From: Parietaria judaica
Lineage: Eukaryota; Streptophyta; Magnoliopsida; Rosales; Urticaceae
DNA length: 64,000 nt
Assembly: GCA_954871525.1 (NCBI GenBank)
Contig: OX940862.1
Location: 44,261,732 to 44,325,731 of the forward strand
Direction: 5' to 3'
The notes under the pieces: model-generated
Seen by the model: the letters and a program-made list of their open reading frames with translations, nothing else
Told to the model about the DNA's origin: nothing
Databases searched by the model: none
Position numbers and translations under genes: made by a program
In this document: positions 14,013 to 52,038 of the stretch, piece by piece
Position numbering within the stretch: position 1 is the stretch's first letter
Layout of the letters: each line of letters opens with the position of its first letter

Positions 14013-16753
14013 TGTTGGAAATCGGTGGTATCAAGACGACTTCCTTACCACGATAATAGCCTCCGAGGCGTCCCGGTAACATTTAAAAATTCATTTTAAA
14101 GCGGAAATCTTGTTACCGAACCGACGACACGGATATCGGGTAACAGTTATTTTGTTAAGATCTGATAAATATTTTGAATTTAATATTTTCATAATCATTA
14201 TTAATAATCTAGTCGAATAGGAAATAAATAGAAAGTTGTAAATGGTTGCATTTATTTACCCAATGCATAAGGCTGTACCTCAACTGACGATTCCGGCTGC
14301 GCGTTTTGACTTGGACAGGGCTCCGCCGGTGCTGAGGGAAACTCCCGTGATCTTCCGGGATATTCTCCTGGATTCCTCGTACCGAAGCGTGGGATTCGCA
14401 GGCAGAACTCCGTAGCAAAATTTAACTAACGGTTCTTTTAAAGCTACCGGAAAAAATATCTCCTAAGCCGAACCAGAAGAGAGATCAGAAGCAGAAAACT
14501 CGCAGACCCTTGAGAAAGAGGGAGAGCTCGAGTTTTTGCTCTGGGGAAGGTGTAAAAAATTTGTAGAATGAGCCTCCTATTTATACGCTCAAGCTGTAAC
14601 CGATTTGGAGATTTTCCCTCCCATTATTCGAATTCTATTAATTAAATATAATTAATTATTTCAATCCAATAGTCCAGATTCAATATCATCTAAATCCAAT
14701 GGATATAATTAATCAGGGATTTAATTAAATAAATAATAATACATGATAAGATCAAAATATTTAATCTTATCATCATATGAATAAAATTTGAATTATATTA
14801 TATATACATATTTAAAATTCGAATTTGATGATGATAATCTAGATCCAATGGTTAAAAATAAATCTTAAACCAATCCAATGGATCAAATCAATTAGGGATA
14901 AAGTCAAATACCATAGGGTTTTACAAAACCCTAATTCAAACTCTTATCCATAATATTATTAGAATTTATATATTATATATATGTAATTAATTAATTTCTA
15001 ATCTGACGGCTAAAGATTAAATCTCAAAACCGATCCACCGGACACAATTAATTAAGAAAATTCAAAATTCCTAAACCTGGTCACCAAGTTTCAATTTCGA
15101 ATTACATTTAGGGTTCAAATCAATTATCTCAATCCAACGGTTGATATTAAATCATAACCGATCCTATGGATTAAATTGATTTTAGGGTTTTACCAAAATA
15201 CCAAAACATTAGGTACTTATGCCACAAATATAAATTCTCCAATTTACATATTCGAATTTAGCTAGGGTTTATATTGTCCAGACCCTAATTCGAATTTACA
15301 CATGTAACAATATATAAATATATATTTTTATTTATTAATATAAATCTTTTAATTATTTATTAGATATTTATAATTAAATCCAAATAATTAAATTATATTA
15401 ATAAAACCTAATCTCAATATCACACATTAAATGTCATGGTGCAACACCATCATTTAAATTCGTGACATGTGATTTAATTTCATAGTTTATCGAACCGAGT
15501 CATAAACTTAGAAAATCTATAAATCACAAACCGTAAGACAGAATGACTTGATTCAAAAAGCAAAGTTGCTAAGAATTTAATTTAAAACAACATAGTGCTG
15601 TTAGAAAATCTAAATTCTAACTTTCTTTTTATCTTGTAATTCCGTGTACCAAATATGATACCTTTGCCACGTTGACGATAAAACTAACTGACGTCTGACA
15701 CAGACTTGTCAGTTTTATAAGTCGAGCCAAATGATTAAACATTATCCAGAATGTATTTTAATCACGTACGTATCATCCGTTACGGAGCTATCCTGGGGAC
15801 CATGGACCCGTATCACTTAAGCTCCAACGAATTGCAAGTAGTTCGTCAAACCTCGAAGTGTTTCCACTATAGACCCGAGGCTGCACTCTTTAGTTATACG
15901 GTATATATTATTCCCTTATAACAGCAGGGTGTCCATTAGATTCAATCAAATACGGGTATTGTCCTTTCACTTGATGACTCACACATGAGCAGGCGGTTTT
16001 TACCGTAATGCCCCTCAATGCATTTTTATCCTTGACTCAGCCAGAAATTTTATGAGCAACCCACTTATGGTTTCGATTCATAAGTTGTGCATGGGTACCT
16101 TCACTTCTCACCATTGACAACCAAGGGAATCATCATGACTCTGATGAGAGCTGTGTGATGCCCATTTCTATGATCAAGCTATCCTTACTACTGACTATCA
16201 TGTTCCCAAAATAATAGTGTTGGGAATAGCGGTAATATCTTGTGTTCTTTAACGGTTAAATCAAAGAACAATCAAGCCAGTAGCTCGGACTTATGATCAC
16301 TCAGGACTTAGAACTTATATCCATTTAATCATCATTTTGTAACTCAACTACAAGTTATCAGTGACGGTCTTCTCGAGTTTAAGTCAGGTCCAGTCCAATA
16401 TGAAGACGCTTCATACTTAATGCACTTCTAGTGAGTGTGACACACACATAATCCAGAATAGGATTGTCACTTAGTCACATTAATAACCTTACCGATTAAT
16501 GGGCTCCCACCCTGTTAATCAGGTCACGGACATTTTAATTCATTTATTATGATTATTAATTCTTCCTCACATGACTCTGTTGTTATAATAATAACATAAT
16601 TGCATCCTTTATGAACGAAGGAATCAAACATTCTATTTTACTCTACCGGAAACTATAATAAGATTACATAATAAGTATCATCTTTATTCAACGACTTGTC
16701 ATAATCTTTTACAAATAGATAAATATCTTGTTTAAGAACACATATGCCCAGCA
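14013..16753 (-). mobile_element. Solo LTR of the long-LTR Copia family
   Basis: This 2.74-kb sequence matches the LTRs at 17085-19852 and 24587-27359 along its whole length, in inverse orientation. It begins TGTTGG and ends GCCCAGCA. A perfect 5-bp duplication TCTTA flanks it (14008-14012 and 16754-16758), so it is a complete solo LTR left by recombination between two LTRs, not a broken piece. On the minus strand its promoter segment keeps a TATAAATAGGAGG box near 14570-14585. Confidence 0.92.
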
Positions 16754-16758
16754 TCTTA

Positions 16759-17079
16759 GCCATTAATCATGTTTGGCGGTCTTGATCCTCAACCATTGGA
16801 TTTGACGCTAGCTGGAGTATTTGAACTCTGGATCCCAATTCCTAATTTATTCTTTACTCTCACACCATTTTCTCCTTGATTTCCTTTGTAAACCCTCTAT
16901 CAAAGCCTTGATTTTTTTTTGTTCTTATCAAAGCTCTCGATTCCTTTTACTAATTTCTCAATCTTTCTTCTTTATTCCCATGATTCCAAATTATTTTATC
17001 TTTCTCATGATCACACTATGAATTATTTTATTTTCTCTTTATCACACTATAAATTCTTTCTCATCATGATGAAGAAGGT
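16759..17079. other. Pre-insertion sequence between the solo LTR and the Copia element
   Basis: About 320 bases of older DNA separate two insertions of the same family in opposite orientation. It is pyrimidine-rich with no usable frame. It directly preceded the sequence now at 27360 before the Copia element landed, so it may be the upstream part of the decayed gene there. Confidence 0.6.
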
Positions 17080-17084
17080 CACTG

Positions 17085-19852
17085 TCTTGGACATATATGT
17101 CCTTAAACAAGATGTTTATCCATTTGTAAAAGATTATGACAAGTCGTTGAATAAAGATGGTACTCATTATGTTAATCTTATTATAGTTTCTCTAGAGTAA
17201 AATAGAATGTTTGATTCCTTAGTTCATAAAGGATGCAATTACGTTATTATTATCACAACAGAGTCATGTGAGGAAGAATTAATAAGCATAATAAATGAAC
17301 TTAAAATGTCCGTGACCTGATTAACTGGGTGGGAGCCCATTAATCGGTAAGGTCATTAATGTGACTGAAGTGACAATCCTATTCTGGATTATGTGTGTGT
17401 CACACTCACTAGAAGTGCATTAAGTATGAAGCGTCTTCATACTGGACTGGACCTGACTTAAACTCGAGAAGTTGTCACATAAGACCGTCACTGACAACTT
17501 GTAGTTGAGTCGCAAAATGATGATCAAATGGATATTAGTTCTAAGTCCTGAGTGATCATGAGTCCGAGCTGCTGGCTTGATTGTTCTTTGATTTAACCGT
17601 TAAAGAACACAAGACATTACCGCTATTCCCAACACTATTATTTTGGGAACATGATATTCAGTAGTAAGGATTGCTTGATCATAGACATGGGCATCACACA
17701 GCTCTCTTCAGAGTCATGATGATTCCCTTGGTTGTCAATGGTGAGAAGTGAGAGGTACCCGTGCGCAACTTATGAATCGAAACCATAAGTGGGTTACTCA
17801 TAATATTACTAGCTGAGTCAAGGATGAAAATGCATTGGGGGGCATTACGGTACAAACCGCCTGCACATGTGTGGGTCATCAAGTGAAAGAACAATAATCG
17901 GTATTTGATTGAATCTAATGGACACCCTGCTGTTATAAGGGAATAATATATACCGTATCAGTAAAGAGTGCAGCCTCGGGTCTATAGTGGAATCACTTCG
18001 AGGTTTGACGAACACCTAGCAGTTCGTTGGAGCTTAAGCGATACGGGTCCATGGTCCCCAGGATAGCTCCGTAACGGATGATACGTACGTGATTAAAATA
18101 CATTCTGGATAATGTTTAATCATTTGGCTCGACTTATAAAACTGACAAGTCAGTGTCAGACGTCATATAGTTTTATCGATAGCGTGGCAAAAGTATCATA
18201 TTTTGGTACATAAAAGTAACTGATAAAAATAAAGTTAGAATTTAGATTTTCTAACAGCACCATGTTGTTCTAAATTAAATTCTAAGCGACTTTGCTTTTT
18301 GAATCAAGTCATTCTGACTTACGGTTTGTGAGTTATGGATTTTCTATGTTTATGACTCGGTTCGATAAACTATGAAATTAAATCACATGCCACGAATTTA
18401 AATGATGGTGCAGTGTTGCACCATGACATTTAATGTTTGATAAAGAGATCAGGCTTTATTAATATAATTTAATTATTTGGATTTAATTATTAATATCTTA
18501 TTAATAATTAATTAATAATTAAAGGATTTATATTAATAAATAAATAATATATTTATATATATTTTTTATGTGTATATTCGAATTAGGGTTTGGAGATAAC
18601 AAACCCTAGCTAAATTCGAATATCTGAATTGAAGATTTTTATTTTTGCGGCATAAGTACCTGAAGTTTGGTATTTTGGCAAAAACCCTAAAATTAATTTA
18701 ATCCATTGGATCGGTTATGATTTAGTATCAACCGTTGGATTGAGATAATTGATTTGAACTCTAATGTAATTCGAAATTGAAACTTGGTGACCAAGTTTAG
18801 GTATTTCGAATTTGCTTGATTAATTATGTCCGTTGGATCGGTTTTGAGATTTTAGCTTTAAACGGTTGGATTAGAAATTAATTAATATTATATATATGAT
18901 ATTAAATTCGAAAATATTTGTGATAAGAGTTCGAATTAGGGTTTTGTAAAACCCTAGGGTATTTGACTTTATCCCTAATTGATTTGATCCATTGGATTGG
19001 TTTAAGATTTATTTTTAACCATTGGATCTAGATAATCATTAACAAATTCGAGTTTAAATATATATGTATAATATAATTCGAAGATATATAATATGATGAT
19101 AAGATTACATGTTTTAATCTTATCTTGTATTATTTAATTAATTAAATCCCTGATTAATTATATCCATTGGATCTAGATGAGATTGAATCTGGATCATTGG
19201 ATTGAAATAATTATTTATATTTAATTAAAGGAATTCGAAAATTGGGAGGGAAAATCTCCAAATCGGTTACAGCTTGAGCCTATGAATAGGAAGCTGATTC
19301 TACACATTATATACACCTCTCCCCAGAGCAAAAACTCGAGCTCTCCCTCTATCTCTAGGGTCTGCGAGTTTTCTGCTTCTGATCTCTCTTCTAGTTCGGC
19401 TTAGGAGATATTTTTCTCCGGTAGCTTTAAAAGAACCGTCAGTTAAATTTTGCGACGGAGTCTTGCCAGCGAAGCCCACGCTTCGGTAGCGAGGAATCCA
19501 GGAGAATATCCCGAAAGATCACGGGAGTTTCCCTCAGCACCGGCGGAGCCCTGACCAAGTCAGAACGCGCAGCCGGAATCATCAGTTGAGGTACGGCCTT
19601 ATGCATTGGGTAAATAAATGCAACCATTTACTGCTTTCTATTTGTTTCCTGTTCGACTAGATTATTAATAATGAATATGAAAATATGAGATTCGAAATAT
19701 TTATCAGATCTTAATTTTTGTTACCCGATATCCGTGTCGTCGGTCCGATAACAAGATTTCCACTTTAAAAATGAATTTTTAAATTTTACCGGGACGGCGC
19801 AGAGGCCATTATTGCGGTATGGAAGTCGACTTGATACCTTCGATTTCCTACA
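17085..19852 (+). repeat. 5' LTR of the Copia element
   Basis: It starts TCTTGGACATATATG, where the family has TGTTGGACATATATG, and ends GATTTCCTACA. The first dinucleotide has therefore mutated from TG to TC. Its TATA position near 19280 reads CCTATGAATAGG, a damaged TATA box compared with the 3' LTR. The LTR is unusually long for a Copia element. Confidence 0.93.
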
Positions 19853-19854
19853 AA

Positions 19855-19871
19855 TGGTATCAGAGCCATGG
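19855..19871 (+). other. Primer binding site, initiator tRNA-Met type
   Basis: TGGTATCAGAGCCATGG begins two bases after the 5' LTR. TGGTATCAGAGC is the usual plant Copia site complementary to the 3' end of initiator methionine tRNA. It fixes the plus-strand orientation. Confidence 0.92.
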
Positions 19872-21715
19872 TTCAAGGATAAATAATTTCAAAATTTAAT
19901 TTAAAGGTTTAAAGAACGAATTATTTGATGAATAAATTAATAATTAAAATTGAAATTTATTTCTGGATATTTTAATTTTAATTTAAAATTAGATTATTTC
20001 CCGACCCGAGAAATCGTGACGGGAAAAATGGCCGGACTGCTAGGCGCAGCCCAGCCCGTGGCAAGGGCTGACCAGGGGCTGCCTCTGCAGCCCCAGGGTC
20101 AAAAACCCTAGGTGCCACGGGCCAGGCCCGTGGTAAAGCACACGCCAGGGTGAGGCCCAGGGCGAAACCCTTGCGGGTTGCCCTGGCGAGCAGCGCCTGG
20201 GCCTCGCGCACTGTGTTGCGGCCCACGCTGCTTGGCAGCGGAATGGGCCTGCGGGCCCAGCGCGAAGTGGGCGCTGCCCTAGCCTCCCCGGTTGGCTGGG
20301 CGTGGCTTGTCCTAGGGTCGTGGGCCCGGGCTTAGGCCCGAAAGGGCCCACGCACATAATTTTAATTATGGGTCGGAATTTATTCCGACCCAGTTCCCTA
20401 GGAATAATTAAATATTAATTATAATTGAAATTAAACAATTATGAATTAATAAAATATGGATGTTATTTATGGATAAATAACATTGACTTATTTTATATAA
20501 TTCATAAAATTTAAATATGGATATTATTTAGTGAATAAATAATATTGTCTTGTTTAATAATAAAATATGGATGATAATTCTTAGGAATGATATCATTGAC
20601 TTATTTTAAAATTTCATAAATAATAAATTTTAAGCCATGGTATGAATTAATTGTTATTCTTAAAGAATGGGAATCATTAAAATCTAATTATATATATTCA
20701 TCAAAGATATAATTTGTTATAACCTATTTTCATAACCCGTAAACATAGTGCTTATGTTTAATCATTATTAATATGTCGAATTAAGGATAGATATGAATAG
20801 TAAAAGAGTAAATGTAAAGTGTTCATTATTAATCGGAAAAATCTCGATTATACAATCTTGTCTGAGGAAGAGGGAATCAAAAGTGGGGCCGGTTCACCAT
20901 CCACTTCTGGGTGACCGGTTAGGACCCCTCCCATCTACCTGGAGAAAGTATGATTGACCTATCACTACCGTCAAAATAATGAACACTATAATCACTGAGG
21001 CCTTATATATAATTACGTGTCGTAATTAATAAAGCCAAAATATAAACTTTTAATGTGTCATTAAAGGAAAGTTTATAATAAGTTTTAATTAACTTACGGT
21101 ATAATAAAAACGTTAGTTTATCAAAAACAATGGCAAGTATAGAATTAATGATAAAAGGTCTCCATTATTACTGTCACAAGGTCTGCTGACCACACCGCCT
21201 CGAGTCACCCTAGAGTGACCACTCCTCTTAAGGAAAGGTGTGCTTGTGGAAGGTTTGGCACCGTGATAGTTTCAAAAGAATATGGGGACGGAGGAATCTT
21301 GGAAATGGACCGTGAGTCACCTTAGAGTGACCATTCCTTAAGGATGACGTTTCCAAGAGGATTCCGAGAACCGAAAATAATGGGTTAAGCTTGCACGGAA
21401 GTTGGTACTTCCCGACCGTCTATGATGATAGTTAATAATCATAAAGAACTGTGGTAGTTTTTAATTTGAGAATTAATTAAGTTTATGACTAAAACTTAGT
21501 TTAACCAAACTACACAGTTGATACCGCGAGTCACCTTAGAGTGACCATGCCTTAAGGACGGCAACGATATGTACAGTCGGTTAAATTATCATGAAATATT
21601 CAATGGGTTTATTAACGTTTTCCCAAGAACATGTTTGCATCATGTGACTATTTCGAACCAACCTAATTACCCAAAACATTCTACCTATAATAAAGTTTAA
21701 TAAGTTTCTTTTTCA
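19872..21715 (+). other. Long untranslated leader of the Copia element, with a GC-rich block
   Basis: About 1.84 kb lie between the primer site and the first ATG. The stretch 20000-20360 is strongly GC-rich (GGGCCC, GCCAGG and CCCAGG blocks) in an otherwise AT-rich element; frames read there are not credible proteins. From 21196 to 21560 it carries three copies of a palindrome. The same architecture is present in inverse orientation at 48313-50175. The length and structure suggest a packaging or translation-control region, by inference. Confidence 0.75.
21196..21560 (+). repeat. Three copies of a GTCAC-N6-GTGAC palindrome in the Copia leader
   Basis: GAGTCACC(C/T)TAGAGTGACC, followed by a stretch ending TTAAGGA, occurs near 21200, 21314 and 21531. 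Each can form a five-base stem with a six-base loop. The spacing is uneven, about 114 and 217 bases. The same three copies occur in the related element at 48480-48846. Confidence 0.88.
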
Positions 21716-22521
21716 ATGCCAGTTAAAATGTCCGATCCAATTATCATCTCTAATGATGAACAAGATTCCGTTAACTCCTATTCACCTCTTGAGCAAGAGT
21801 CTGAAGAGCCACTGACTATCTTTGAGAAAGATACGGAATGGTTCAAATATGATGTTGAGTATAATTTACTCACTCACTATTTCAGCCAGTATCATCTCAA
21901 AGGTCAAGCTTTCAAGAATGCTATGCTCAAGACATCTCATGATGAAATTGAGAGACTATTATTGAAAGTGAATAAAGTAACGGGACTTGTCAGTGAGGCT
22001 ATTGCAAGGGATAACAAAAGAAAGACTGAATCGAAAGCCGAACCTGGAAGGAAAGAAAGAAAGTTTGGTTTGTCTGCAATGTGTTTCCAGTGTGGAACAA
22101 ATCCGAGAGTGAAAGGCCAGCTTAGATGCAGGCAACACCTCAGTTCATCTAAGGGTAAAACCTTTTCTGAACTATACATTGAATTTTATTGGAAGAGACT
22201 CATGTCTCAGTTCCATAGATTAAAATTACATAACATTGCGAACATTTTTCAATACAGAAGTGGCTTCTGCTAAAATGAAAAATGGACATGGAGCGTTATG
22301 CATTGAATGCTGGCTCAAACCAAGAGCAAACGTACATACTATGTGCCGGAATTGCTTGCGGGCTTGGAGAGGTAAAGACTCCCCTGTTAACCCCAAGATT
22401 AGTTTTTTATTGGTGAGATTATTCTCGGATCCATAGATTAAAAATCTAATATACTCTCTTTTCTTTTTCAGGTGGCGGGAGTTCCGGCGATGGGAGCTCA
22501 GTTGCAAACGGTAGCGAGTAG
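21716..22521 (+). CDS. Captured three-exon gene of unknown family with two C-X2-C-X11-C-X2-[H/C] motifs
   Basis: Exons are 21716-22154, 22258-22371 and 22472-22521. Both introns (103 and 100 bases) are GT-AG and the phases join, giving a 200-residue protein ending in TAG. The first residues follow the family's gag start (MSDPII here, MSNPII in the copy at 48312); from there the sequence is unrelated to gag. Residues 13-45 are acidic. Residues 45-105 look helical and charged, ending in a basic patch (about 99-118). Motif 1 is Cys123, Cys126, Cys138, His141; motif 2 is Cys161, Cys164, Cys176, Cys179. Both have Pro-Arg at the same offset and CR at the third Cys, so they are likely duplicated zinc-binding units, one in exon 1 and one in exon 2. 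The C terminus (184-200) is rich in Gly and Ser. I do not recognise the family. Retained introns suggest capture at the DNA level or of unspliced RNA. It could alternatively be a domesticated accessory gene of this lineage. Confidence 0.72.
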
Positions 22522-22849
22522 TATTCGAGTTACTCGAAGAAGGGAACTTGCTAATTTTTAAGTTTGAATTCGATTTGAGTTTGTTGTTATTACAATTCTT
22601 GCATTCATTAAAGACCTCAGTTTATGTTTATAATTCTTTATCAATGAAGTTATCATTTTGAATTATTCATAAACACCTGACGTGTTACTTTGATAGTCTT
22701 CAATAAATCTTTATCAATTCATGTGTAATTGAATATCATTTTTTTATGAGATGATATACAAGATTATCATTATGTAAAAGATAACAGTGATTGTTGTCAA
22801 ATAGAGAGTGGAAACCACGGTCCCAGGATCAGAACCATGTGATACTCAG

Positions 22850-22975
22850 ACGTAGTGGGAGGTTAATATTAACAACACTACGAGTAGTCATTGTAAGAGT
22901 TTCATTAGAAACTCTGGGAATGCTCAGTCGTAGTGGGAGGTTCTTGTGAACGGTTCAACACTACGAGTAAACCCA
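22850..22975 (+). repeat. Duplicated GTAGTGGGAGGTT...CACTACGAGTA blocks before the reverse transcriptase
   Basis: CGTAGTGGGAGGTT followed by CACTACGAGTA occurs twice, at about 22852-22888 and 22929-22970. GTAGTG and CACTAC pair, so each block can form a hairpin. The related Copia copy has the same two blocks, inverted, at about 46850-46990. They sit where an integrase gene would be expected. Confidence 0.75.
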
Positions 22976-22976
22976 A

Positions 22977-24540
22977 TTGGTTTTTGACCTAGATGTTTCA
23001 AACACTAGTGTTGAAGATCCCATAAGCTTCAAGGAAGCTATGGTGGATCCTGATAAGGGAGAATGGCAGGAAGACATGAACCAAAAAATAGAATCAATGG
23101 ATTCTAATGAATTCTGGGAACTTGTAGACCTACCTGATGGCTTCAAAAAACATTGGGAATAAATGGGTATACAAGAGAAAGAGAGGAGTGGACGGGAAGG
23201 TTGAAACCTTCAAGGCTAGACTAGTGGCAAAGGGTTTTACCCAGAGAAAAGGTATTGATTTCGATGAGACCTTCGCTCCAGTCGCTAAGTATAAGTCCAT
23301 CCGGATTCTCATGGCCATAGCCTGTAGTCTCAATTACGAGATATGGCAGATGGACGTCAAAACCGCATTCCTGAACATGTACATTGACGAGAACATATAT
23401 ATGGACCAACCAAAAGGGTTCGTGCAATAGGGTCAAGAAAGGAAAGTTTGCAGATTACTCAAGTCCATTTATGGATTGAAGCAAGCTTCTAGATCTTGGA
23501 ATCTAAGGTTTGATGAGACCATCAAGACCTATGGGTTCATTTAGAATGAAACTGAAGCCTACATTTACAAACTCAATGATGAGTCCGTGGAGATTTTTCT
23601 TGTTCTATACGTCGATGATATTCTTCTCATTGGAAACAGTGTGAAAAGATTATCAGACGTGAAAGCGTGGCTATCTACGCAATTCCAAATGAAGGATATG
23701 GGAGAAGCTTGTTATGTTCTTGGTATCCTTATCTTTTGGGATCGCAATAACAGGTTTCTAGCCTTGTCACAAGCAGCCTACATAGATAAGGTGCTTGAAC
23801 GTTTTGCAATGACAAACTCCAAGGGAGGTAATTTACCAACCAGGCATGGAGTGTTCCTAAGCAGGAACCAGTGTCCAACTTCTCCGGAAGAGCAAGACGA
23901 GATGAGGCGGGTGCTCTATGCTTCAGCAGTGGGAAGTCTGATGTACGCTATGCAGTGTACAAGACCAGACATCTGTTACGCTGTGGGAATGGTTAGTAGA
24001 TACCAATCAAACCCTGGTATGGCTCACTGGACTGCAGTGAAGAATATTCTCAAGTATCTTCGGAGAACGAGAAACTATATGTTAATGTTTTCAGGTTCAG
24101 ATCTGAATCCACTAGGATACACTGACTCGGATTTTATGTCTGACAAAGACGCGAGAAAATCAACGTCGGGAGCAGTGTACACCCTTGCTGGTGGAGCGAT
24201 ATTCTGGAGAAGCGTAAAGCAATCCTGTATCGCAGATTCCACAATCGAAGCTGAATATGTGGCTGCATCTTAAGCAGCCAAGGAATCAGTTTGGTTAAAG
24301 AATTTCAACATGGAACTGGGTGTAGTCCCAGATGTAGAAGGACCACAAACGCTATACTGTGATAACAGTGGAGCTGTGGCAAATTCGAAAGAGCCCAGAG
24401 ATCATAACAAGGCAAAACATATAGAAAGGAAATACCATCTCATTAGAGAAATAGTACGTCGTGGGGACGTGCAGGTTGTGAAAATATCCATTTACCAAGA
24501 CGTTGCCAGAGAAAATATTCAGGAGGCATCTGGATAATAT
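22977..24540 (+). pseudogene. Decayed Copia reverse transcriptase and RNase H
   Basis: Pieces of a Copia polymerase are readable in order: NKWVYKRKR and the RLVAKGF block, the MDVKTAFLN motif, KSIYGLKQASR, the YVDD catalytic loop near 23609-23620, then RNase H with GYTDSDF and EAEYVA. Damage is plain: a one-base insertion near 23145 shifts the frame, in-frame stops interrupt at 23428, 23541 and 24271, and sequence near 24490 is lost. The normal upstream integrase is absent. This copy cannot make active enzyme. Confidence 0.93.
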
Positions 24541-24571
24541 GGGCGTGAAAGACATGAGTCATCTTCTTTAA

Positions 24572-24586
24572 GTACAAGTGGGAGAT
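24572..24586 (+). other. Polypurine tract of the Copia element
   Basis: GTACAAGTGGGAGAT directly abuts the 3' LTR at 24587. AAGTGGGAGAT is the usual plant Copia plus-strand primer. The inverse occurs at 45187-45201 in the related copy. Confidence 0.9.
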
Positions 24587-27359
24587 TGTTCTACATATAT
24601 GTCCTTAAACAAGATGTTTATCCATTTGTAAAAGATTATGACAAGTCGTTTAATAAAGATGGTACTTATTATGTTAATCTTATTATAGTTTCTGTAGAGT
24701 AAAATAGAATGTTTAATTCCTTAGTTTATAAAGGATGCAATTATGTTATTATTATCACAACAGAGTCATGTGAGGAAGAATTAATAAGCATAATAAATGA
24801 ACTTAAAATGTCCGTGACCTGATTAACTGGGTGGGAGCCCATTAATCGGTAAGGTCATTAATGTGACTGAAGTGACAATCCTATTCTGGATTATGTGTGT
24901 GTCACACTCACTAGAAGTGCATTAAGTATGAAGCGTCTTCATACTGGACTGGACCTGACTTAAACTCGAGAAGTTGTCACATAAGACTGTCACTGACAAC
25001 TTGTAGTTGAGTCGCAAAATGATGATCAAATGGATATTAGTTCTAAGTCCTGAGTGATCATGAGTCCGAGCTGCTGGCTTGATTGTTCTTCGATTTAACC
25101 GTTAAAGAACACAAGATGTTACCACTGTTCCCAACACTATTATTTTGGGAACATGATAGTCAGTAGTAAGGATTACTTGATCATAGACCTGGGCATCACA
25201 CAGCTCTCTTCAGAGTCATGATGATTCCCTTGGTTGTCAGTGGTGAAAAGTGAGAGGTACCCGTGCGCAACTTATGAATCGAAACCATAAGTGGGTTACT
25301 CATAATATTACTGGCTGATTCAAGGATGAAAATGCATTGAGGGGCATTACGGTACAAACCGCCTGCTCATGTGTGGGTCATCAAGTAAAAGAACAATAAT
25401 CGGTATTTGATTGAATCTAATGGACACCCTGCTGTTATAAGGGAATAATATATACCGTATCAGTAAAGAGTGCAGCCTCGGGTCTATAGTGGAATCACTT
25501 CAAGGTTTGACGAACACCTAGCAGTTCGTTGGAGCTTAAGTGATACGGGTCCATGGTCCCCAGGATAGCTCTGTAACGGATGATACGTACGTGATTAAAA
25601 TACATTCTGGATAATGTTTAATCATTTGGCTCGACTTATAAAACTGACAAGTCTGTGTCAGACGTCAGATAGTTTTATCGATAGCGTGGCAAAAGTATCA
25701 TATTTTGGTACATGAAAGTAACTGATAAAAAGAAAGTTAGAATTTAGTCAATTTTTGGATAATTTTTAATCAATTTTTGTTCTAAATTAAATTCTAAGCG
25801 ACTTTGCTTTTTGAACCTAGTCATTCTGACTTACGGTTTGTGATTTATGGATTTTCTAAGTGTATGACTCGGTTCGATAAACTATGAATTTTAATCACAT
25901 GTCACGAATTTAAATGATGGTGCTGCACCATGAAATTTAATGTGTGATAAAGATATCAGGCTTTATTAATATAATTTAATTATTTGGATTTAATTATTAA
26001 TATCTTATTAATAATTATTTAATAATTAAAGGATTTATATTAATGAATAAATAATATATTTATACATATTGTTTTATGTGTATATTTGAATTAGGGTTTG
26101 GAGATAACAAACCCTAGCTAAATTCGAATATCTGAATTGAAGATTTTTATTTTTGCGGCATAAGTACCTGAAGTTTGGTATTTTGGCAAAAACCCTAAAA
26201 TCAATTTAATCCATTGGATCGGTTATGATTTAGTATCAACCCTTGGATTGAGATAATTTATTTGAACCCTAATGTAATTCAAAATTGAAACTTGGTGACC
26301 AAGATTAGGTATTTCGAATTTGCTTGATTAATTATGTCCGTTGGATCGGTTTTGAGATTTTATCTTTAAACCGTCATATTAGAAATTAATTAATATTATA
26401 TATATGATATTAAATTCGAATATATTTGTGATAAGAGTTCGAATTAGGGCTTAGTAAAACCCTAGGGTATTTGACTTTATCCCTAATTGATTTGATCCAT
26501 TGGATTGGTTTAAGATTTATTTTTAACCATTGGATCTAGATAATCATTAACAAATTCGAATTTAAATATATATGTATAATATAATTCAAAGATATATAAT
26601 ATGATGATAAGATTAAATGTTTTAATCTTATCTTGTATTATTTAATTAATTAAATCCTGATTAATTATATCCATTGGATCTAGATGAGATTGAATCTGGA
26701 TCATTGGATTGAAATAATTATTTATATTTAATTAAAAGAATTCAAAAATTGGGAGGGAAAATCTTCAAATCGGTTACAGCTTGAGCCTATAAATAGGAAG
26801 CTGATTTTACACATTATATACACCTCTCCCCAGAGCAAAAACTCGAGCTCTTCCTCTCTCTCTAGGGTCTGCGAGTTTTCTGCTTCCGATCTCTCTTCTG
26901 GTTCGGCTTAGGAGATATTTTTCTCCGGTAGCTTTAAAAGAACCGTCAGTTAAATTTTGCGACGGAGTCTTGCCAGCGAAGCCCACGCTTCGGTAGCGAG
27001 GAATCCAGGAGAATATCCCGAAAGATCACGGGAGTTTCCCTCAGCACCGGCGGAGCCCTGCCCAAGTCAGAACGCGCAGCCGGAATCATCAGTTGAGGTA
27101 CGGCCTTATGCATTGGGTAAATAAATGCAACCATTTATTGCTTTCTATTTTTTTCCTGTTCGACTAGATTATTAATAATGAATATGAAAATATAAGATTC
27201 GAAATATTTATCAAATCTTAATTTTTGTTACCCGATATCCGTGTCGTCGGTCCGATAACAAGATTTCTGCTTTAAGAATCAATTTTTAAATGTTACCGGG
27301 ACGGCGCGGAGGCCATTATAGTGGTAAGAAAGTCGACTTGATACCTTTGATTTCCAACA
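24587..27359 (+). repeat. 3' LTR of the Copia element
   Basis: It starts TGTTCTACATATATG and ends GATTTCCAACA. It aligns with the 5' LTR throughout, except for a short block near 25749-25785 with unrelated AT-rich sequence; the solo LTR agrees with the 5' LTR there, so the change is in this copy. Confidence 0.94.
26788..26796 (+). promoter_or_regulatory. TATA box in the 3' LTR
   Basis: TATAAATAG in the context GAGCCTATAAATAGGAAG, about 570 bases before the LTR end. It marks U3 as roughly 2.2 kb and the transcribed R-U5 part as about 0.55 kb. From here it would drive transcription outward into the sequence after 27359. Confidence 0.7.
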
Positions 27360-27364
27360 CACTG

Positions 27365-28582
27365 ATCACAAAAAATGAGATAGTGTCTGAGTTGGAGACG
27401 TCTTTCTCCCTTGTCCTCTCAAATTCTCCTTGTTCCACCATAAATGAGGAGAATATTGTGAAGATTTACCAGAAGTACTTCCACAACATTGGTGTTACCA
27501 TCCGTGTTCCCAAGAAGAAATATCACTCAGACAATATTGATGAAAGGTGGACATGCGCCTACGAGGCCTTCCCAGACACTGGTCTTCATCTTCCTTTATC
27601 GAGCCTTCTCCTAACATTCCTCAACTCCTTTCGACTCTCTCTAGGTTAGATTAACCCCAATTTCCATTGTTTTTTCATTGGTTCTTTACTGTTCGCGGCT
27701 GAACGGGTTTAGTCACTCACTCTTGAAGACCTAATGAGAATGCTCGTCATTTTGAACGAACCTCATCAACGCTGGGAGGTTCCTGATTTCTCATCGCTAC
27801 AAGACTGAACTTCTCATCGATTTTCTTAAACAAGTGACTAGGTGGTTTGAGTGTTATTTCTTTGTGTTGGTAGATAAATTTGCTCTTATCCCAAATTCAA
27901 GTTTTTTCCTACCAATTTCATCGCTTACACTGCGAGATACAAATTCTCAGCAGATAACAAGACTTTCACTTTTTCCCAGATACGAAAGGCGGACCTATGG
28001 GAACTGTTTTCCATCAATGTTCTCCGTCCTAACGTTGTCCTTGATGTCCTTACCAAAAACATACAAGAGGAAGCAATGGTGTCTGTTAAGAGGAAAATTC
28101 AAAAAGAGAGGACGAGCTTTTCAAACGTTCGGAAGACTTCCCACGCTTCAACTTCTCATCGTTCGGAAGACTTCCTATGCTTCAACTTCTCATCGTTCTT
28201 GCTGTGCAGGGATCACTTTTGGGTTCAGTTCCTCCTTCCAGCAGCAATGTTTTCAAAGAGAGTGCTTTAGGAGGAGACAAAAAAGCGCTTTTTTCTTCTA
28301 TTGTTGTTGTATCAACAACCTCGTCGACTCTTGTGATAACAAGCACTGTCAACTCTGCAAATGACTTTGCTTGTAGTCGTAGAATCCCCTAATGAATTCC
28401 TTATGGATGTTATAGTGGCGTATTAACATCTATCTTTCCCCCTGCTTGATCGTTCTCTCCCTTGATAATAGGTCTTCTTGAAGCTGGGATTTCCTTGGAG
28501 GCTCCTCGGGCATTTGATCTCTTTATTCAAGGCTCCAATTTTTACTTGTTTTGCACAGCTATTTGGAAATGTTGCTTCATTT
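27365..28582 (+). pseudogene. Decayed plant gene of the 'putative gypsy-type transposon' class, 5' part
   Basis: The first readable stretch (about 27370-27630) includes NEIVSELETSFSLVLS and ERWTCAYEAFPDTGLHLPL. The Y-E-A-F...GL-LPL core is typical of the plant proteins annotated as putative gypsy-type transposon. Later pieces (RWFECYFFVLVDKF near 27837, and a charged stretch near 28060) fit that family but are out of frame with each other, so the gene is dead. The Copia element inserted immediately upstream and an Athila-like element interrupts it at 28588; the rest continues at 35117. Confidence 0.6.
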
Positions 28583-42267: not shown

Positions 42268-45186
42268 TGTTGGAAAATCTGGGTTTGAATCCCGGTTCCA
42301 TTACGCCGAAATGTGCCTCCGAGCCGTCTCGGTAACATTCAGAAAATTATTTTAATGCGGAAAACTTGTTATCGGAACAACGGCACGGATATCGGGTAAT
42401 GACCATTTTAACAAGACCCAATAAATATTACAAATTTAATATTTCATAAACATTATTAATAGACTAATCGAATAGGAAATAAATAGAAAGCGGTAAATGG
42501 TTGCATATATTAACCCAATCCATAAGGCCGTACCTTGGTTGAAGTTTTCGCTGCGGACTCTGAAGTTCGGTAGGGCTCGACTAGGGCTGATGGAAACACC
42601 CGTGATCTTCCGGGATATTCTCCGGGATTCCTCGTACCGAAGTGTGGGCTTCGCCGGCAGGACTCCGTCGCAAAACTTTACCTGAGGTTCTTTTTAAGCT
42701 ACCAGAGAAACAATGATCTCACTAAGCCGAACCGAAAAGGAGATCAGAGGCAAAAACTCGCAGACCCTAGGGAGAGGGGGAGAGCTCGAATTTTTGCTCT
42801 AGGGAGAGGTGTGTAAAATGTGTAGAATGAATCCTCTATTTGCTTAAGACTGTAACCGAATTAGAGATTTTCACTCCAAAATTTGAATTTTATTTATAAT
42901 TAAATACTTTAATTATTTCAATCCAAGGGTTGAGATTTAATCTCATATAGATCCAATGGTTATAATTAAATTTTTATTTAATTAAATAAGAAAGAATTCG
43001 TAAAATCAAAAACCAATCTTATCCTCTTATTAAATATATAAAAAAAATTATTAAATATAATTGATTATCCTAATCCAAAGGTTTAGATTCAATCTCATCT
43101 AAATCCACTAGATATAATTAATTCGGGATTTAATTAAATAAGAAAGAATTGGTAAAATAAAAAATCAATATTACCTACTAATTTAAATATAACTTCGAAA
43201 CATATATATATATATATAATAATAATAATTTTGAAAACTATTAATTATCTAGATCCAACGGCTTAGGTTAATCTTGGACAGATCTAATGGATCAAATTAA
43301 TTTAGGATAAAATCAAATTCCTTAAGACTTGGTAAAATCCCAAATTCAATTTTATCCTTATCATTATTTCAATAATTATATGATATATATTTAATTTATT
43401 AATTTCCAATCCGACGGTAAAGATTAAATCTTAAACCGATCTAACGGATACAATTAATTAGGTTAAATTCGAAAACCCTAAGCTTGGTCACCAAGCTACT
43501 ATTTTTCGAATTAGGGTGAGGTTAAAAATCAATCATCTTAATCCTACGATTGATATTAAATCATTTACGATCTAAATGATAAGATTGATTTTAGGGTTTT
43601 TGCTAAAGTACCAAACTCTAGGTACTTATGCCGCAAATATGAAATCCTAACTAGGTAAAAACTCGTGTGGACTAGTTCGTGCAAGCCCACATCGATTTAC
43701 ACATCGATTTACACATGTGTTAAATATATATCATTATATATTTTATTTATTAATATAAATCTATAAATTATTAATTAATTATTAATAAAATATTAATAAT
43801 TAAATCCATTATATTAATATTTCTTGATCTCAATATCACACATTAAAATTTCACAGTGCCACACCATCATTTAGATTCTTGACATGTGATTTAATTTCAT
43901 AGTGTATCAAACCGAGCATAACCTTTGAAAATCTATAAATCACAAACCGCAAGTCGAAATGACTTGGTTCAAAAAAAAAAGTTGATTAGAATTTAATTTC
44001 CAACAACATGGTGTTGATAGAAAATCCAAATTATAACTTTCTTTTATCAGTTAATTTTGTGTACCAAGATATGGTACTTTTGCCACGCTGACGATAAAAC
44101 TATCTAACGTCTGCCACAGACCTTTCAGTTTTATAAGTCTAGCCAAATGATTAAACATTATCCAAAATATATTTTAATCACGTACGTATCATCCATGACG
44201 GAGCTATCCTGGGGACCATGGACCCTTATCACTTAAGATCCAACGAACGGCTAGTTGTTCGTCAAACCTCAAAGTGATTCCACTATAGACCCGAGGTTGC
44301 ACTCTTTAGTGATACGATATATATTATTCCCTTTATATCAGCATAGTGTCCATTGATACAATCAAATTCGGGTTATTGTCTTTCACTTGATGATTCGCAC
44401 ATGAGCAGGCAATTTTTACCGTAATGCCCCTCATTGCATTTTCATCCTTGACTCAGCCAATAATATTATGAGCAACTCACTTATGTTTTCGATTTATAAG
44501 TTGCGCACGGGTACCTCTCACTTCTCACCACTGACAACCAAGGGAATCATCGTGACTCTGAAGAGAGTTGTGTGATGCCCATGTCTATGATCAAGCTATC
44601 CTTACTAATGACTATCATGTTCCCAAAATAATAGTGTTGGGAACAGCGGTAATATCTTGTGTTCTTTAACGGTTAAATCAAAGACTAATCAAGCCAATAG
44701 CTCGGACTCATGATCACTCGGGACTTAGAACTAATATCCATTTGATCATCATTTTGTGACTCAACTACAAGTTATCAGTGACGGTCTTATATGATAACCT
44801 CTTGAGTTTAAGTCAGGTCCAGTCCAGTATAAAGACGCTTCATACTTAATGCACTTCTAGTGAGTGTGACACACACATAATCTAGAATAGGATTGTCACT
44901 TAGTCACATTAATGACCTTATAAGATTAATGGGCTCCCACCCAGTTAATCAGTTCACGGACATTTTAAGTTCATTTATTATGATTATTAATTCTTCCTCA
45001 CATCGACTCTGTTGTGATAATAATAGCATAATTGCATCCTATATGAACTAAGGAATCAAACATTCTATTTTACTCTACAAGAAACAATAATAAGATTAAC
45101 ATAATAAGTATCATCTTTATTCAACGACTTGTCATAATCTTTTACAAATGGATAAATATCTTGTTTAAGGACACATATTTCCAACA
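42268..45186 (-). repeat. 3' LTR of the second Copia element
   Basis: 2.92 kb, from TGTTGGAAAATC to CATATTTCCAACA. It aligns with the other family LTRs but is more diverged, and lacks an intact TATAAATAGG box (near 42838 the sequence reads TATTTGCTTAAG). Confidence 0.9.
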
Positions 45187-45201
45187 ATCTCCCACTTGTA
45201 C

Positions 45202-46860
45202 TTAAAGAAGATGACCCATGTCTTTCACGCCCATATTTTCCAGATGCCTCCTGAATATTTTCTCTAGCAACGTCCTGGTAAATGGATCAGCCAGATTTTC
45301 TTCCGAAGCTATTTTCACAACCCGTACGTCCCCACGACGCACTATTTCTCTTATGAGATGGTATTTCCTTTCTATATGTTTTGCCTTGTTATGGTCTATG
45401 GGTTCTTTAGAATTTTCCACAGCGCCTTTCTTATCACAGTACAACGTTTGTGGCCCATCTACATCTGGGACTACACCTAGTTCCATGTAGAAATTCCTTA
45501 GCCAAACTGATTCCTTGGCTGCTTCACAGGCAGCCACATATTCAGCTTCCATTGTGGAATCTGCGATACAGGATTGCTTTACACTTCTCCAGAATATCGT
45601 TCCACCAGCAAGGGTGTACACTGCTCCTGACGTCGACTTTCTCGCGTCCTTGTCAGACATGAAGTCTGAGTCAGTATATCCAAGTGGATTCAGATCTGAA
45701 CCTGAAAACACTAACATATAGTCTCTCGTTCTCCGAAGATACTTGATAATGTTTTTCAATATAGTCCAGTGAGCCATACCAGGGTTGGATTGGTATATAC
45801 TAACTATTTCCTCAGCGTAACAGATGTCTGGTCTAGTACACTACATAGCATACATCAGACTTCCCACTGCTGAAGCATATGGCACCCGCCTTATCTCGTC
45901 TTGCTCTTCCGGAGAAGTTGGACACTGTTTCCTGCTAAGGAACACTCAGGAGAAGTTGGACACTGTATCCTGCTAAGGAACACTCCATGCATGGTTGGTA
46001 AATTACCGCCCTTGGAGTTTGTCATTGAAAAAAGTTCAAGCACCTTATCAATGTAAGCTGCTTGTGATAAGGCTAGAAACCTGTTATTGCGATCCTTAAA
46101 AATACGGATCCCAAGAACATAGCTGGCTTCTCCCACTGTTTCCAATGAGAAGAACATAGCCACGCTTTCATGTTCGATATTCTTTTCACACTGTTTCAAA
46201 TGAGAAGAATATCGTCGACGTATAGAACAAGAAAAATTTCCACAGACTCATCATTGAATCTATAAATGCAGGCTTCAGTTTCATTCTGAATGAATCCATA
46301 GGTCTTGATTGTCTCATCAAACCTTAGATTCCAGGATCTGGAAGCTTGCTTCAATCCATAAATGGACTTGAGTAATCTGCAAACTTTCCCTTCTTGACCC
46401 TGTTGCACGAACCCTTCTGGTTGGTCCATATAGATGTTCTCGTCAATGTACCCGTTCAGGAATGCGGTTTTGACGTCCATCTGCCGAATCTCGTAATTGA
46501 GACTATAGGCTATGGCCATGAGAATCCGGATGGACTTATACTTAGCGATTGGAGCGAAGGTCTCATCAAAATCAATACTTTCCCTCTGGGTAAAACCCTT
46601 TGCCACTAGTCTAGCCTTGAAGGTTTCAACCTTCCCGTCCACTCCTCTCTTTCTCTTGTATACCCACTTATTTCCAATGGTTTTGAAACCATCAGGTAAG
46701 TCTACAAGTTCGCAGACTTTATTAGAATCCATTGATTCTATTTCTTGGCTCATGGCTTCCTGCCATTCTCCCTTATCAGGATCCACCATAGCTTCCTTGT
46801 AGCTTGTGGGATCTTCAACACTAGTGTTTGAAACATCTATACCAAGTAGGTTTACTCGTA
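45202..46860 (-). pseudogene. Copia reverse transcriptase and RNase H, partly intact
   Basis: The reverse transcriptase is open from about 46860 to 46196, with the RLVAKGF, MDVKTAFLNGY, KSIYGLKQASR and YVDD motifs. After YVDDILLI the frame is lost because a segment is deleted. RNase H continues at 45777-45202 with GYTDSDF and EAEYVAACEAAKE, ending near the polypurine tract. A local tandem duplication of about 43 bases (45910-45990) repeats the codons around QCPTSPE. Less damaged than the plus-strand copy, but still unable to give a full enzyme. Confidence 0.92.
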
Positions 46861-47469
46861 GTGTTTAACCGTTCATAAGAACCTCCCACTACGTCTGAGT
46901 ATTCCCAGAGTTTCTAATGAAACTCGAAACGCGATTACTCGTAGTTTTGTTACCATCAACCTCCCACTACGTCTGAGTATCACTTGGTTCTGATTCTGGG
47001 ATCGTGGTTTCCGCACTCTATTATGACAACAGTCATTGTTGTCAATTATTGTGACCACTTGTCACTTGGTACATCAACAACCTTACTTATTTATATCTCC
47101 ATCACTATGAATTTTATCATAAGATATCAACCTTTGGTGAAAGGTTTATCTAAGCAATGAAGAACTAAATTATTTACTCAAAATGTATAGGATCTGAAAA
47201 GAAATAAATTTATTTAACTATTTTTTAAAAATTGTAAAAAATAAAAATTGAAGGGTTTTCAACTCGCTCTTCAATAACAAGATCATTACAATAAAAAAAT
47301 TTAAGAAAATTAAATTTCGAGTCTTCTTATTGCGCCGACAGGGTTCTCCGAGACTCGGATGTCTTCTGGCAATTACTCCTTAGCTGCTGCTGATAAACAA
47401 AGAATGTCACATATTTCAGTTTTAGATCTTTGGAGAAAAGACTTTCTAAAACAAAATGTGTATTAAGAC
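46861..47469 (-). other. Spacer between gag and reverse transcriptase, integrase absent
   Basis: About 600 AT-rich bases replace the expected protease and integrase. No HHCC zinc finger or DDE core is readable. The two GTAGTGGGAGG-type blocks (46850-46990) are shared with the plus-strand copy. Beyond about 47040 the spacer no longer aligns clearly with the other copy. Confidence 0.6.
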
Positions 47470-48312
47470 ACTAATCGGGTGAGACACTCACCAATTTCAT
47501 TCTTCTTTTCATTTTGGAACTTGGGACAATCCTTTTTCCAATTTCACATTTCCTTGCAAAGGAAGCATCTTCCTTTCTCAGCAGCTTTCTTACCCCCCCG
47601 TCTTTGGCTGAAAATTCTTTCCCCACTTTTTCTTAGGACCGGGCCTTTTCTTCATCTTTGGGTTCTTAGAAGAATATCCTTTCCTGAACGCCATGTTCAG
47701 TTCGGATATCTTCTTGATCAAGCCCGAGATGTCCTCAAAGGTTTTCAATTCATTAATCAACTGTGTCAAACCATATTTCAGTTTTTTCATAATGTAATTG
47801 CTGGTGAATGGAACGAACTCCGGTGACAGCGAGTTAAGGATAATGTTGATCTGAGATTTCTCGTCCACCACGGCCTCGTGCAGCTCAGCCTCATTGAACC
47901 AGTTCGTCATGCTCATGACATGATCACGAACATACGTACCTGGTTTCATTTTGGCATTCATGTAACGACGAGTCGCATCATGTTGAGCTTGCTCAGACTT
48001 CTTACCATACATCCCTTGGAGGGACTCCATGATCTCATAAGCAGTGTCCTTTTCCTCTAACTTGATTCTCAACGATTCTGTCATGCTAGCTAGCATGTAT
48101 GCCTTAGCACGATTGTTCGCATGAATCCAAGAATCATAGAGTTCTTTCACACCTGTGGCGTTGTTAGCGGCCGGTGCAGTGGGACATTCATCAGTAAGAA
48201 CAAAACGAATGTTCTCACTGATAAGGACAATATTGATGTTGCTTTTCTACTTCGGAAAGTTACTTCCAGCTAGAGTGTTGTTTGAAAGCAGTGATATGAT
48301 AGGATTCGACAT
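47470..48312 (-). pseudogene. Copia gag with a damaged zinc knuckle
   Basis: The ATG at 48312 gives MSNPIISLLSNNTLAGSNFP; an in-frame TAG near 48250 replaces the usual Trp codon. The rest is open from about 48200 to 47590, with YDSWIHANNRAKAYML and the LKYGLTQLINELKTFE block typical of Copia gag (UBN2 class). Near 47580-47520 a CCHC knuckle is readable as CFLCKEMWNWKKDC, where the expected His is replaced by Asn. Its first codons match the start of the captured gene at 21716. Confidence 0.88.
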
Positions 48313-50175
48313 TTTAAACTGACATTGAAAAAAACCTTTTAAAACTTTATTATAGGTAGAATGTTTAGGTAAATTATTGGTTCAAAATAGTTACATGATG
48401 CAAACATGTTCTCGGGAAAACGTTAACTAAACCCTTTAACTATTTCGTGATAATTTAACCGACTGTAAACATCGTTGCCGTCCTTAAGGCATGGTCACTC
48501 TAAGGTTACTCGCGGTATCAATTGTGTAGTTTGGTTAAACTAAGTTTTAGTCATAAACTTAATTAATTCTGAAAACAAGAACCACCACAGTTCTCTATGA
48601 TTATTAACTATCAACATAGACTGTCGGGGAAGCAACAACTTCCGTGCAAGCTTAACCCATTATTTTTGGTTCTCGTGATCCTCTTGGAAACGTCGTCCTT
48701 AAGGAATGGTCATTCTAGGGTGACTCGCGGTCCATTTCCAAGATTTCTCCGTCCCCATATTCTTTTGGAACTATCACAGTGTCAAACCTTCCATAAGCAC
48801 ACCTTTCCTTAAGAGGAGTGGTCACTCTAGGGTGACTCGAGGCGGTGTGGTCAACAGACCTTGTGACAATAATAATGAATATCTTTTTTTATTTATTCTA
48901 TACTTGCCATAGTTTTACTAAGATAACGTTTTTAAAATAAAATAATTTATTTAAAACTTATTATAAAGTTTCTATTAATGACACGTTAAAAGTTTATATT
49001 TTGGCTTTATTAATTACGACACGTAATTTCATAATTAGCCTCAAGATTATAGTGTTTATCATTTCGTCGGTAGTGAGAGGTCAATGCATACTTTATCCAG
49101 GTAGGATGGAGGGGTCCTAACCGGTCACGCAGAAGTGGATGGTGAACCGGCCCCACCTTTGATTTCCTCTTCCTCAGACAAGATTGTACGATTGAGTTTT
49201 TCCGACTAATAATAAACACTTTACATTTACTCTTTACTATTTATATCAATCCTTAATTCGACATATTAAAAATCATTAAACATAGGCACTATGTTTACGG
49301 TTTATGAAAATAGGTTATAAAAAATTATATCTATGATGAATAATTATAATTAGATTTTAATGATTCTTATTCAACAAGAATAGTCATTAAATTAATTCAT
49401 GCCTTATTAATAATTATTTATGAAATTTTAAAATAAGTCAATGATATCATTCCTAAGAATTATCATCCATATTTTAATATTAAATAAGATAATATTATTT
49501 AATCATTAAATAGTATCCATATTTAATTTTATGAATTATATAAAATAAGTCAATGTTATTTGTCCATAAATAACATCCGTATTTTATTTTCAATTAATTA
49601 ATCATAATTAATTTAATTCATAATTATTTAATTTCAATAATAATTAATATTTATTCCAAGGGTACCGGGTCGGAATTTTTATCCCGACCCATAATTAAAT
49701 TATTGCACGTGGGCCCTCCGGGCCTAAGCCCGGGTCCACTGCCCTAGGAAAAGCCGCGCCCAGCCCTTCGGGGAGGCCAAGGCAGCGCACGCCTCGCGCT
49801 GGGCCCCAAGGCCCATTCCGCTGCCAGGCAACGTGGGCCGCAGGCCAGCGCGCGAGGCCCATGCGCTACGCGGCAGGGCAACCTGTTAGGGTTTCGCCCT
49901 GGGCCTCGCCCTGGTCCTTGGCTTTGCCACGGGCCTGGCCCGCGGCATCTAGGGTTCGACCCTGGGGCTGCAGTGGCAGCCTCTGGTCCTCCATTGCCAC
50001 GGGTTGGGCTGCGACTCGCAGCCCGGCCAATTTTCCCGGTCCGACATTTCGGGTCGGGAAATTATCTAATTTTAAATTAATATTAAAATATGTAGAAATT
50101 CAATTTTAATTATTAATTTATTTATCAAATAATTCGTTCTTCAAACCGTTAAATTAAATTACGTAATTATTTATC
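48313..50175 (-). other. Long leader of the second Copia element
   Basis: About 1.86 kb with the same layout as 19872-21715: a GC-rich block near the primer site (49690-50050), an AT-rich middle, and three palindromes near the gag start. No credible protein. Confidence 0.8.
48480..48846 (-). repeat. Three GTCAC-N6-GTGAC palindromes in the second Copia leader
   Basis: Copies lie near 48487-48515, 48703-48730 and 48815-48842, the inverse of those at 21196-21560, with nearly the same spacing. One arm in the first copy reads GTTAC and one in the second reads TCATT, so two of the three stems have an imperfect pair. Confidence 0.86.
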
Positions 50176-50198
50176 CTTGAACCATCGCTTTGATACCA
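50176..50198 (-). other. Primer binding site of the second Copia element
   Basis: On the minus strand it reads TGGTATCAAAGCGATGG and begins two bases from the 5' LTR at 50201. TGGTATCAAAGC differs by one base from the standard initiator-Met site. Confidence 0.88.
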
Positions 50199-50200
50199 AT

Positions 50201-52018: not shown

Positions 52019-52038
52019 AAAACATTAAACTTCATAAC

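Follow-up and report, generated by a model that had tools for sequence, protein, structure and literature searches.

The window analysed here is a 64,000-nucleotide stretch of the Parietaria judaica genome. On its forward strand lies an LTR/Copia element, element A (17085-27359), which is flanked by the target site duplication CACTG at 17080-17084 and 27360-27364 and holds the gene under study at 21716-22521. The 5' LTR (17085-19852) and the 3' LTR (24587-27359) are each about 2.77 kb long; aligned over 17091-19852 and 24593-27359, they are 96.0% identical, with a K2P distance of 0.0376 across 2762 sites. A further LTR of the same family, apparently solo and 90-91% identical to those of element A, was seen on the reverse strand at 14013-16750. 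The primer binding site, TGGTATCAGAGCCATGG, was read from the sequence at 19856-19872 (+) and is presumably of the initiator tRNA-Met type; a polypurine tract was read at 24576-24586 (+). Thus element A carries the Ty1/Copia hallmarks of paired LTRs, target duplication, primer binding site and polypurine tract, and the Copia-type reverse transcriptase (RT) profile PF07727 was matched both in element A and in a sister copy of the window, copy B (42296-52019, reverse strand). Between the 5' LTR and the gene runs a 1.86-kb leader (19853-21715, +) common to both copies, with a K2P distance of 0.121 between them. The gene is followed by an A+T-rich 3' flank (22522-22779, +; 25% G+C) that is absent from copy B and contains AATAAA at 22702, a possible poly(A) signal.

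The RT frame of element A (22971-24537, +) is broken, with three in-frame stops and one frame-changing deletion relative to a young copy. PF07727 was matched in two pieces, 23128-23427 and 23545-24270, and RT is the sole pol domain recognisable by profile in element A. The 3' part of the frame, where Pfam gave no match, we take by its position to be RNase H. An imperfect short direct repeat (22842-22886 and 22920-22969), present in copy B too, immediately precedes the RT frame, next to the position expected for protease and integrase. No Pfam match to protease or integrase was found among 10 chosen open pieces of elements A and B, and the gap between the gene and the RT frame in element A is about 450 bp. 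Four young copies, with LTR K values of 0.0034, 0.0136, 0.0051 and 0.0119 over about 1.19 kb, carry LTR pieces at the offsets expected from element A and hence have the same internal length. Protease and integrase would not fit into an internal region of this length and layout; in these young copies, the leader was read over the 500 bases that precede the gene. Because of the missing matches, the narrow gap and the constant internal length, we conclude that the lineage of element A is a non-autonomous Copia in which no gag-protease-integrase block precedes RT. The absence of protease and integrase from the layout, besides that of gag, had escaped an earlier reading of this DNA made from the sequence alone (the sequence-only reading). 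The RT over 1.5 kb was open in five of seven young copies, one of the others having a stop and one a frameshift; the start of the frame was open for at least 70 codons in L032, L035, L037 and L039, was not listed as such for L038, L040 and L041, and both pieces were open in three of the seven.

The gene in the position of gag is predicted to have three exons. Exon 1 (21716-22154, +) contains the first codons common with gag, a helical stretch predicted at low confidence, a basic linker and motif 1; exon 2 (22258-22371, +) contains motif 2; and exon 3 (22472-22521, +) encodes a Gly/Ser-rich end with the stop codon. Intron 1 (22155-22257, +) and intron 2 (22372-22471, +) are 103 and 100 nt long, respectively, both with GT..AG borders and in phase 1, and the spliced product is 200 residues long with a stop right after. 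The sequence-only reading had described two such introns of about 100 bases, this product, and twin C-X2-C-X11-C-X2-[H/C] motifs at the end of exon 1 and in exon 2, all of which were confirmed, the motifs at 22082 and 22299. The ligands are C123, C126, C138 and H141 in motif 1 and, in the window copy, C161, C164, C176 and C179 in motif 2. The pattern C-x2-C-x11-C-x2-[CH] occurs at exactly these two places in the six frames of the window and at none in 30 dinucleotide-shuffled windows. The G+C content is 39-62% in the exons and 29-32% in the introns. Modelling by AlphaFold without an alignment gave mean pLDDT values of 52.8 for exon 1 and 69.5 for exon 2, which are not interpretable. The acidic N-terminus, the low-confidence helical stretch, the basic linker and the two zinc-type modules of the predicted product suggest nucleic-acid binding. 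An antisense open frame of 131 codons without a Pfam match was seen across the insert at 22226-22621 on the reverse strand.

The two motif exons and their introns are related to each other. The segments 22040-22257 and 22258-22471, each an exon end with its motif plus the following intron, align over their whole length as a tandem duplication, with an alignment score matched by none of 2000 shuffle pairs. The distance from the first Cys codon to the GT is 73 nt in both units. Across 24 aligned codons, seven residues are kept, including three Cys, and five of those seven codons differ silently; the fourth ligand is His in one unit and Cys in the other. The K between the duplicated introns is 0.42 (95% 0.27-0.61), and within the window the two introns are more alike than their exons. 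A known or structured RNA in the introns was rejected, with no Rfam match in 17000-28000 and fold z-scores of -0.79 and 0.28.

Copy B has gag (about 47590-48312) where element A has the zinc-motif gene, with PF14223 matched at E 6e-17 and PF07727 at E 2e-58. Homology between the two elements stops at 21744 in A and 48296 in B and restarts at 22780 and 47043, so that the segment specific to A stands for about 1250 bp of B. The start of the gene was said to be gag's own ATG. The residues M-S-[D/N]-P-I-I are indeed common with copy B, but the ATG that aligns with the start of B's gag comes four codons after the frame's first ATG (21716). Likewise, the claim that gag was replaced fits the anatomy, with the gene of A placed on the gag start, but its direction is not supported by the RT distances, and copy B as the ancestral state is not supported either. 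The RT dS is 0.16-0.21 between B and the subfamilies that carry the zinc-motif gene and 0.19-0.30 among these subfamilies themselves, measured over 450 nt with two subfamily-I copies covering 129 and 109 nt. Because B is no further from the subfamilies than they are from each other, elements with a common backbone may have exchanged their 5' cassette, which holds either gag or the zinc-motif gene. By eye, a strong splice-donor-like site, GGTGAGTGTC, was seen in copy B just past gag, at about 47482-47492 on the reverse strand, where the Copia shGAG introns lie. At the edge of B's LTR, 52057-52377 and 53247-53568 form a direct-repeat pair about 1190 bp apart and 94-97% identical, which resembles the LTR pair of a short non-autonomous element.

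The 200-residue product had no homologue in the protein searches, which covered candidates of 110-350 aa and, with a padded query, of about 345-1100 aa sharing short words with it. The protein set does hold plant proteins, as it returned 10 relatives of B's gag, six of them named Zingiber officinale. The copia gag profile PF14223 did not match the whole product, the read-through or the N-terminal piece at E up to 10. The matches to zinc families in Pfam and PDB were all below threshold; the best weak Pfam matches were zf-RING_UBOX (E 0.0058 in one member) and zf-C3HC4 (E 0.017 on a fragment), and Double zinc ribbon PF18912 scored 12.7 bits against a Pfam cut-off of 27. The spacing of the Cys pairs is like that in the Double zinc ribbon, RING and GATA families of Pfam, but all scores shown lie under the curated cut-offs. 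The zinc-finger spacings of A20, S14 and RanBP2, considered as leads, did not surface in the profile searches. Six loci in viral contigs (37% identity over 49 residues, with candidate-only E-values) were set aside, one of them on inspection being a short coil, and 13 pattern stretches in prokaryote genome contigs contained no relatives.

Many copies of the gene were found in the 539-Mb genome. The search returned 383 candidates, of which the best 40, i.e. the copies most like the window, were scored. These are 90-100% identical, 37 of them matching all 806 bases and the rest bases 2-806, 1-740 and 8-806. Both introns are present in all 40. The four splice dinucleotides are all kept in 36 of 40 copies on the alignment of the gene and in 35 on a longer alignment; each of the eight ligands is kept in 38 to 40. 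The whole frame is intact in 22 copies and broken in 18, two of the intact ones (L025 and L049) having an intron 2 that ends in AA instead of AG. The unspliced pattern of the exon 1/intron 1 boundary, allowing at most two mismatches, occurs at 142 places in the genome and its reversed control at none; together with the 40 scored copies, this places the gene in many copies of its family, as befits an accessory open reading frame. The spliced counterpart at junction 1 was found at no place in the genome. If processed, 40 of 40 subfamily-I copies, seven of seven examined copies of the 84% type and three of six diverged copies (L071, L072, L077, L078, L079 and L082) would match it. The absence of intronless copies at junction 1 is therefore well supported for subfamilies I and II and less so for the most diverged subfamily. 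At G000:C21:9492740-9508568, three copies of the gene are spaced exactly 7512 bp apart, i.e. by one LTR plus the internal part, and form a tandem array.

The sequence evolution of these copies points to a protein under selection. The dN/dS is 0.21 over the 22 intact copies and the pN/pS is 0.26 over all 40. Changes were placed by parsimony on one FastTree tree, on which they are not fully independent: in the gene, 66 synonymous and 31 nonsynonymous changes fall on internal branches, giving a dN/dS of 0.123, and the terminal branches give 0.725 for intact and 0.753 for broken copies. The same tree analysis of shifted frames of exon 1 gave 0.79 and 1.61. By codon position, the changes number 25/8/64 on internal and 127/82/111 on terminal branches (position 2 versus 3, Fisher p 5e-7), and none of the internal-branch changes falls in a ligand codon or a splice dinucleotide. 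Such a pattern is expected if the gene is required while the element spreads and can decay once a copy has inserted. The RT frame, analysed in 16 sequences, behaves similarly, with a dN/dS of 0.189 on internal and 0.652 on terminal branches. As judged from these substitution patterns, purifying selection acts on the zinc-motif protein and on the family's RT. The introns changed at 0.20 per site on internal branches versus 0.53 in the gene's 3' flank (p 7e-5), with similar terminal rates of 0.54-0.60 and 0.64, respectively. A special constraint on the introns is only suggestive, because the next noncoding stretch does not differ significantly from them (p 0.19) and the leader changes about as slowly (0.26).

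These data bear on two simpler readings of the locus. According to one, the open frame arose by chance or is a remnant of decayed gag or integrase, and its introns are not real; it starts, after all, in the region of the gag ATG and has no homologue. The frame past the junction with B, however, is open for 175 codons, running on through intron 1, and an open length of 136 was reached by none of 20000 shuffles of the insert and none of 20000 shuffles of exon 1. A chance frame is ruled out by the shuffles and the internal-branch counts, and decayed gag by the missing gag profile match in exon 1 together with selection in exactly this spliced frame, unless the counts are an artefact of the tree, so that we give this reading next to no credence. 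According to the other, intron 1 is not spliced out, and translation continues from exon 1 to 22273. That frame is open to 22273 in the window, only five of 40 copies have stops in the stretch, intron 1 is 103 nt long in 37 of 40, and the pN/pS there in that frame is 0.50. Against this, the internal changes in the stretch are spread 7/8/6 over the codon positions, which is no coding pattern, and exon 2, reachable only by splicing, keeps motif 2. We consider read-through improbable.

Thirteen further loci were drawn from 100 of the 142 places with the unspliced pattern, eight at 82-85% and five at 75-77% identity to the gene, with an unbroken frame in five. Comparison of nine sequences, the five unbroken further loci and four of subfamily I, defined subfamilies I, II and III with protein identities of 0.82 (I-II), 0.67 (I-III) and 0.69 (II-III) and dN/dS of 0.20, 0.24 and 0.17, respectively, at NG86 dS values that are high (0.54-1.20). 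Both motifs are kept in all three. Motif 2 has Cys as its last ligand in subfamily I but His in II and III, an exchange that a zinc site would allow. The NG86 dS had suggested exons evolving about 2-7 times faster than introns; at fourfold sites (0.25-0.38 versus 0.17-0.23 in introns) the excess is cut to 1.4-2.1 times. One idea for this excess is that spliced mRNA escapes siRNAs. One locus, L082, is 82% identical to the window gene, but its exon 3 is 53 nt long, as in subfamily III, and it is possibly a mosaic of subfamilies.

How the gene came to the element is a separate matter. A DNA transposon or gene-piece carrier such as a Pack-MULE or Helitron may be imagined within gag, with the gene as passive cargo, and PMC4717578 describes Pack-MULEs that carry exons with introns. 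The ends of the insert, however, have no terminal inverted repeats and just one imperfect direct repeat of 15 nt, lying 8-15 nt inward, which speaks against a nested transposon; moreover, the insert stands in for the sequence of B rather than adding to it, and passive cargo would not give an internal dN/dS of 0.12. This origin is highly improbable. The sequence-only reading had offered transduction of a host gene with its introns; such a capture could have come about by template switching with unspliced pre-mRNA or DNA recombination, with later amplification and retention. The duplication of two exon-intron modules resembles the history of an ordinary gene and is old (intron K 0.42) relative to the divergence of the A and B leaders (K 0.12), and PMC13317346 describes plant LTR elements that switch template to other RNAs. 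No donor was found among the protein candidates in either size range, and the best 40 of the 383 genomic candidates are all element-like copies. The captures by LTR elements described in PMC4717578, among them maize Bs1 and TRIM, likewise place non-element coding sequence inside an LTR element but hold exons only, whereas both introns are kept here. We regard host capture as possible, though we lean somewhat against it; it concerns origin and is compatible with an accessory gene borne by the element.

The other proposal of that reading was an accessory gene that this lineage had adopted. Copy number, selection and the conserved ligands give it strong support. The locus very probably belongs to an LTR/Copia lineage that carries a spliced accessory gene of about 200 codons with twin C-x2-C-x11-C-x2-[C/H] motifs on the gag start, followed by a separate RT frame; the gene looks like a working part of the element, not decayed scrap. 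No gag was seen in the layout of the elements with the zinc-motif gene. Gag, protease and integrase would be supplied in trans by a partner. Splicing and zinc binding are expected from the conserved splice borders and ligands. One transcript could have two fates: the spliced RNA, perhaps ended early at AATAAA, would serve as mRNA, and the unspliced full-length RNA as genome for reverse transcription. We propose that the introns persist in the DNA copies because unspliced RNA is what gets reverse transcribed. The zinc-motif protein would then serve packaging by the partner's Gag, export of the unspliced RNA or something else. That it binds the element's own RNA, for packaging or handling of the unspliced form, is a plausible role, if somewhat short of a probable one. 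Because selection acts on genes of an element without gag, protease and integrase, it suggests that the products favour their own RNA, and selection acting in cis does not fit easily with dependence on a partner's Gag. A split system, in which an intron-regulated twin-zinc RNA-binding protein and the element's RT both act in cis on the unspliced RNA, with the introns as selected switches, would provide for Rev-like export or packaging into the partner's particles; we hold it to be rather unlikely.

Accessory open reading frames are known from plant LTR retrotransposons, with Grande, RIRE2, Retand and env-like cases in the review PMC7264820. As here, an extra gene without known host homologue is kept in many copies of a family, but according to that text they lie mostly between pol and the 3' LTR, whereas the present gene lies at the gag start, is interrupted by two introns and belongs to an element without gag, protease and integrase. 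For Arabidopsis EVD, PMC8892269 describes how GAG is made from a spliced RNA that ends early, with the unspliced RNA as the template for reverse transcription. EVD and other Ty1/Copia elements therefore resemble the present family in having an intron in the 5' coding cassette and, as proposed here, in dividing spliced RNA for translation from unspliced RNA as genome; the EVD intron lies downstream of gag, whereas the two introns here interrupt a different gene in gag's place. An EVD-like division of RNA would explain why the introns persist although the spliced frame is under selection. The Cer1 element of C. elegans, in which a protein from spliced LTR-element mRNA is reported to be needed for export of the unspliced RNA (PMC12786077), is by description a model for one of the functions proposed above. 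An orchid element with an RNA demethylase reading frame likewise retained an added gene over several rounds of replication, but is a Gypsy with a separate frame and a known domain, unlike the Copia gene here; the same source, a screen of 121 plant genomes, reports no domain gain in Copia elements (PMC9289625). In the literature seen, in part as excerpts and with subscription papers mostly outside its scope, no paper describing a Copia element with a spliced twin-zinc gene at the position of gag was noticed, which is weak evidence of absence.

Taken together, an orphan gene with introns appears to have travelled in the gag position of a Copia lineage, surviving both retrotransposition and the split into subfamilies while selection acted on its protein. 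The family offers a system for testing how transcripts are apportioned between splicing and reverse transcription when an LTR element has introns in its own RNA. It also raises the testable question of why selection maintains RT and an additional protein in an element that would have to take its particles and integrase from elsewhere.
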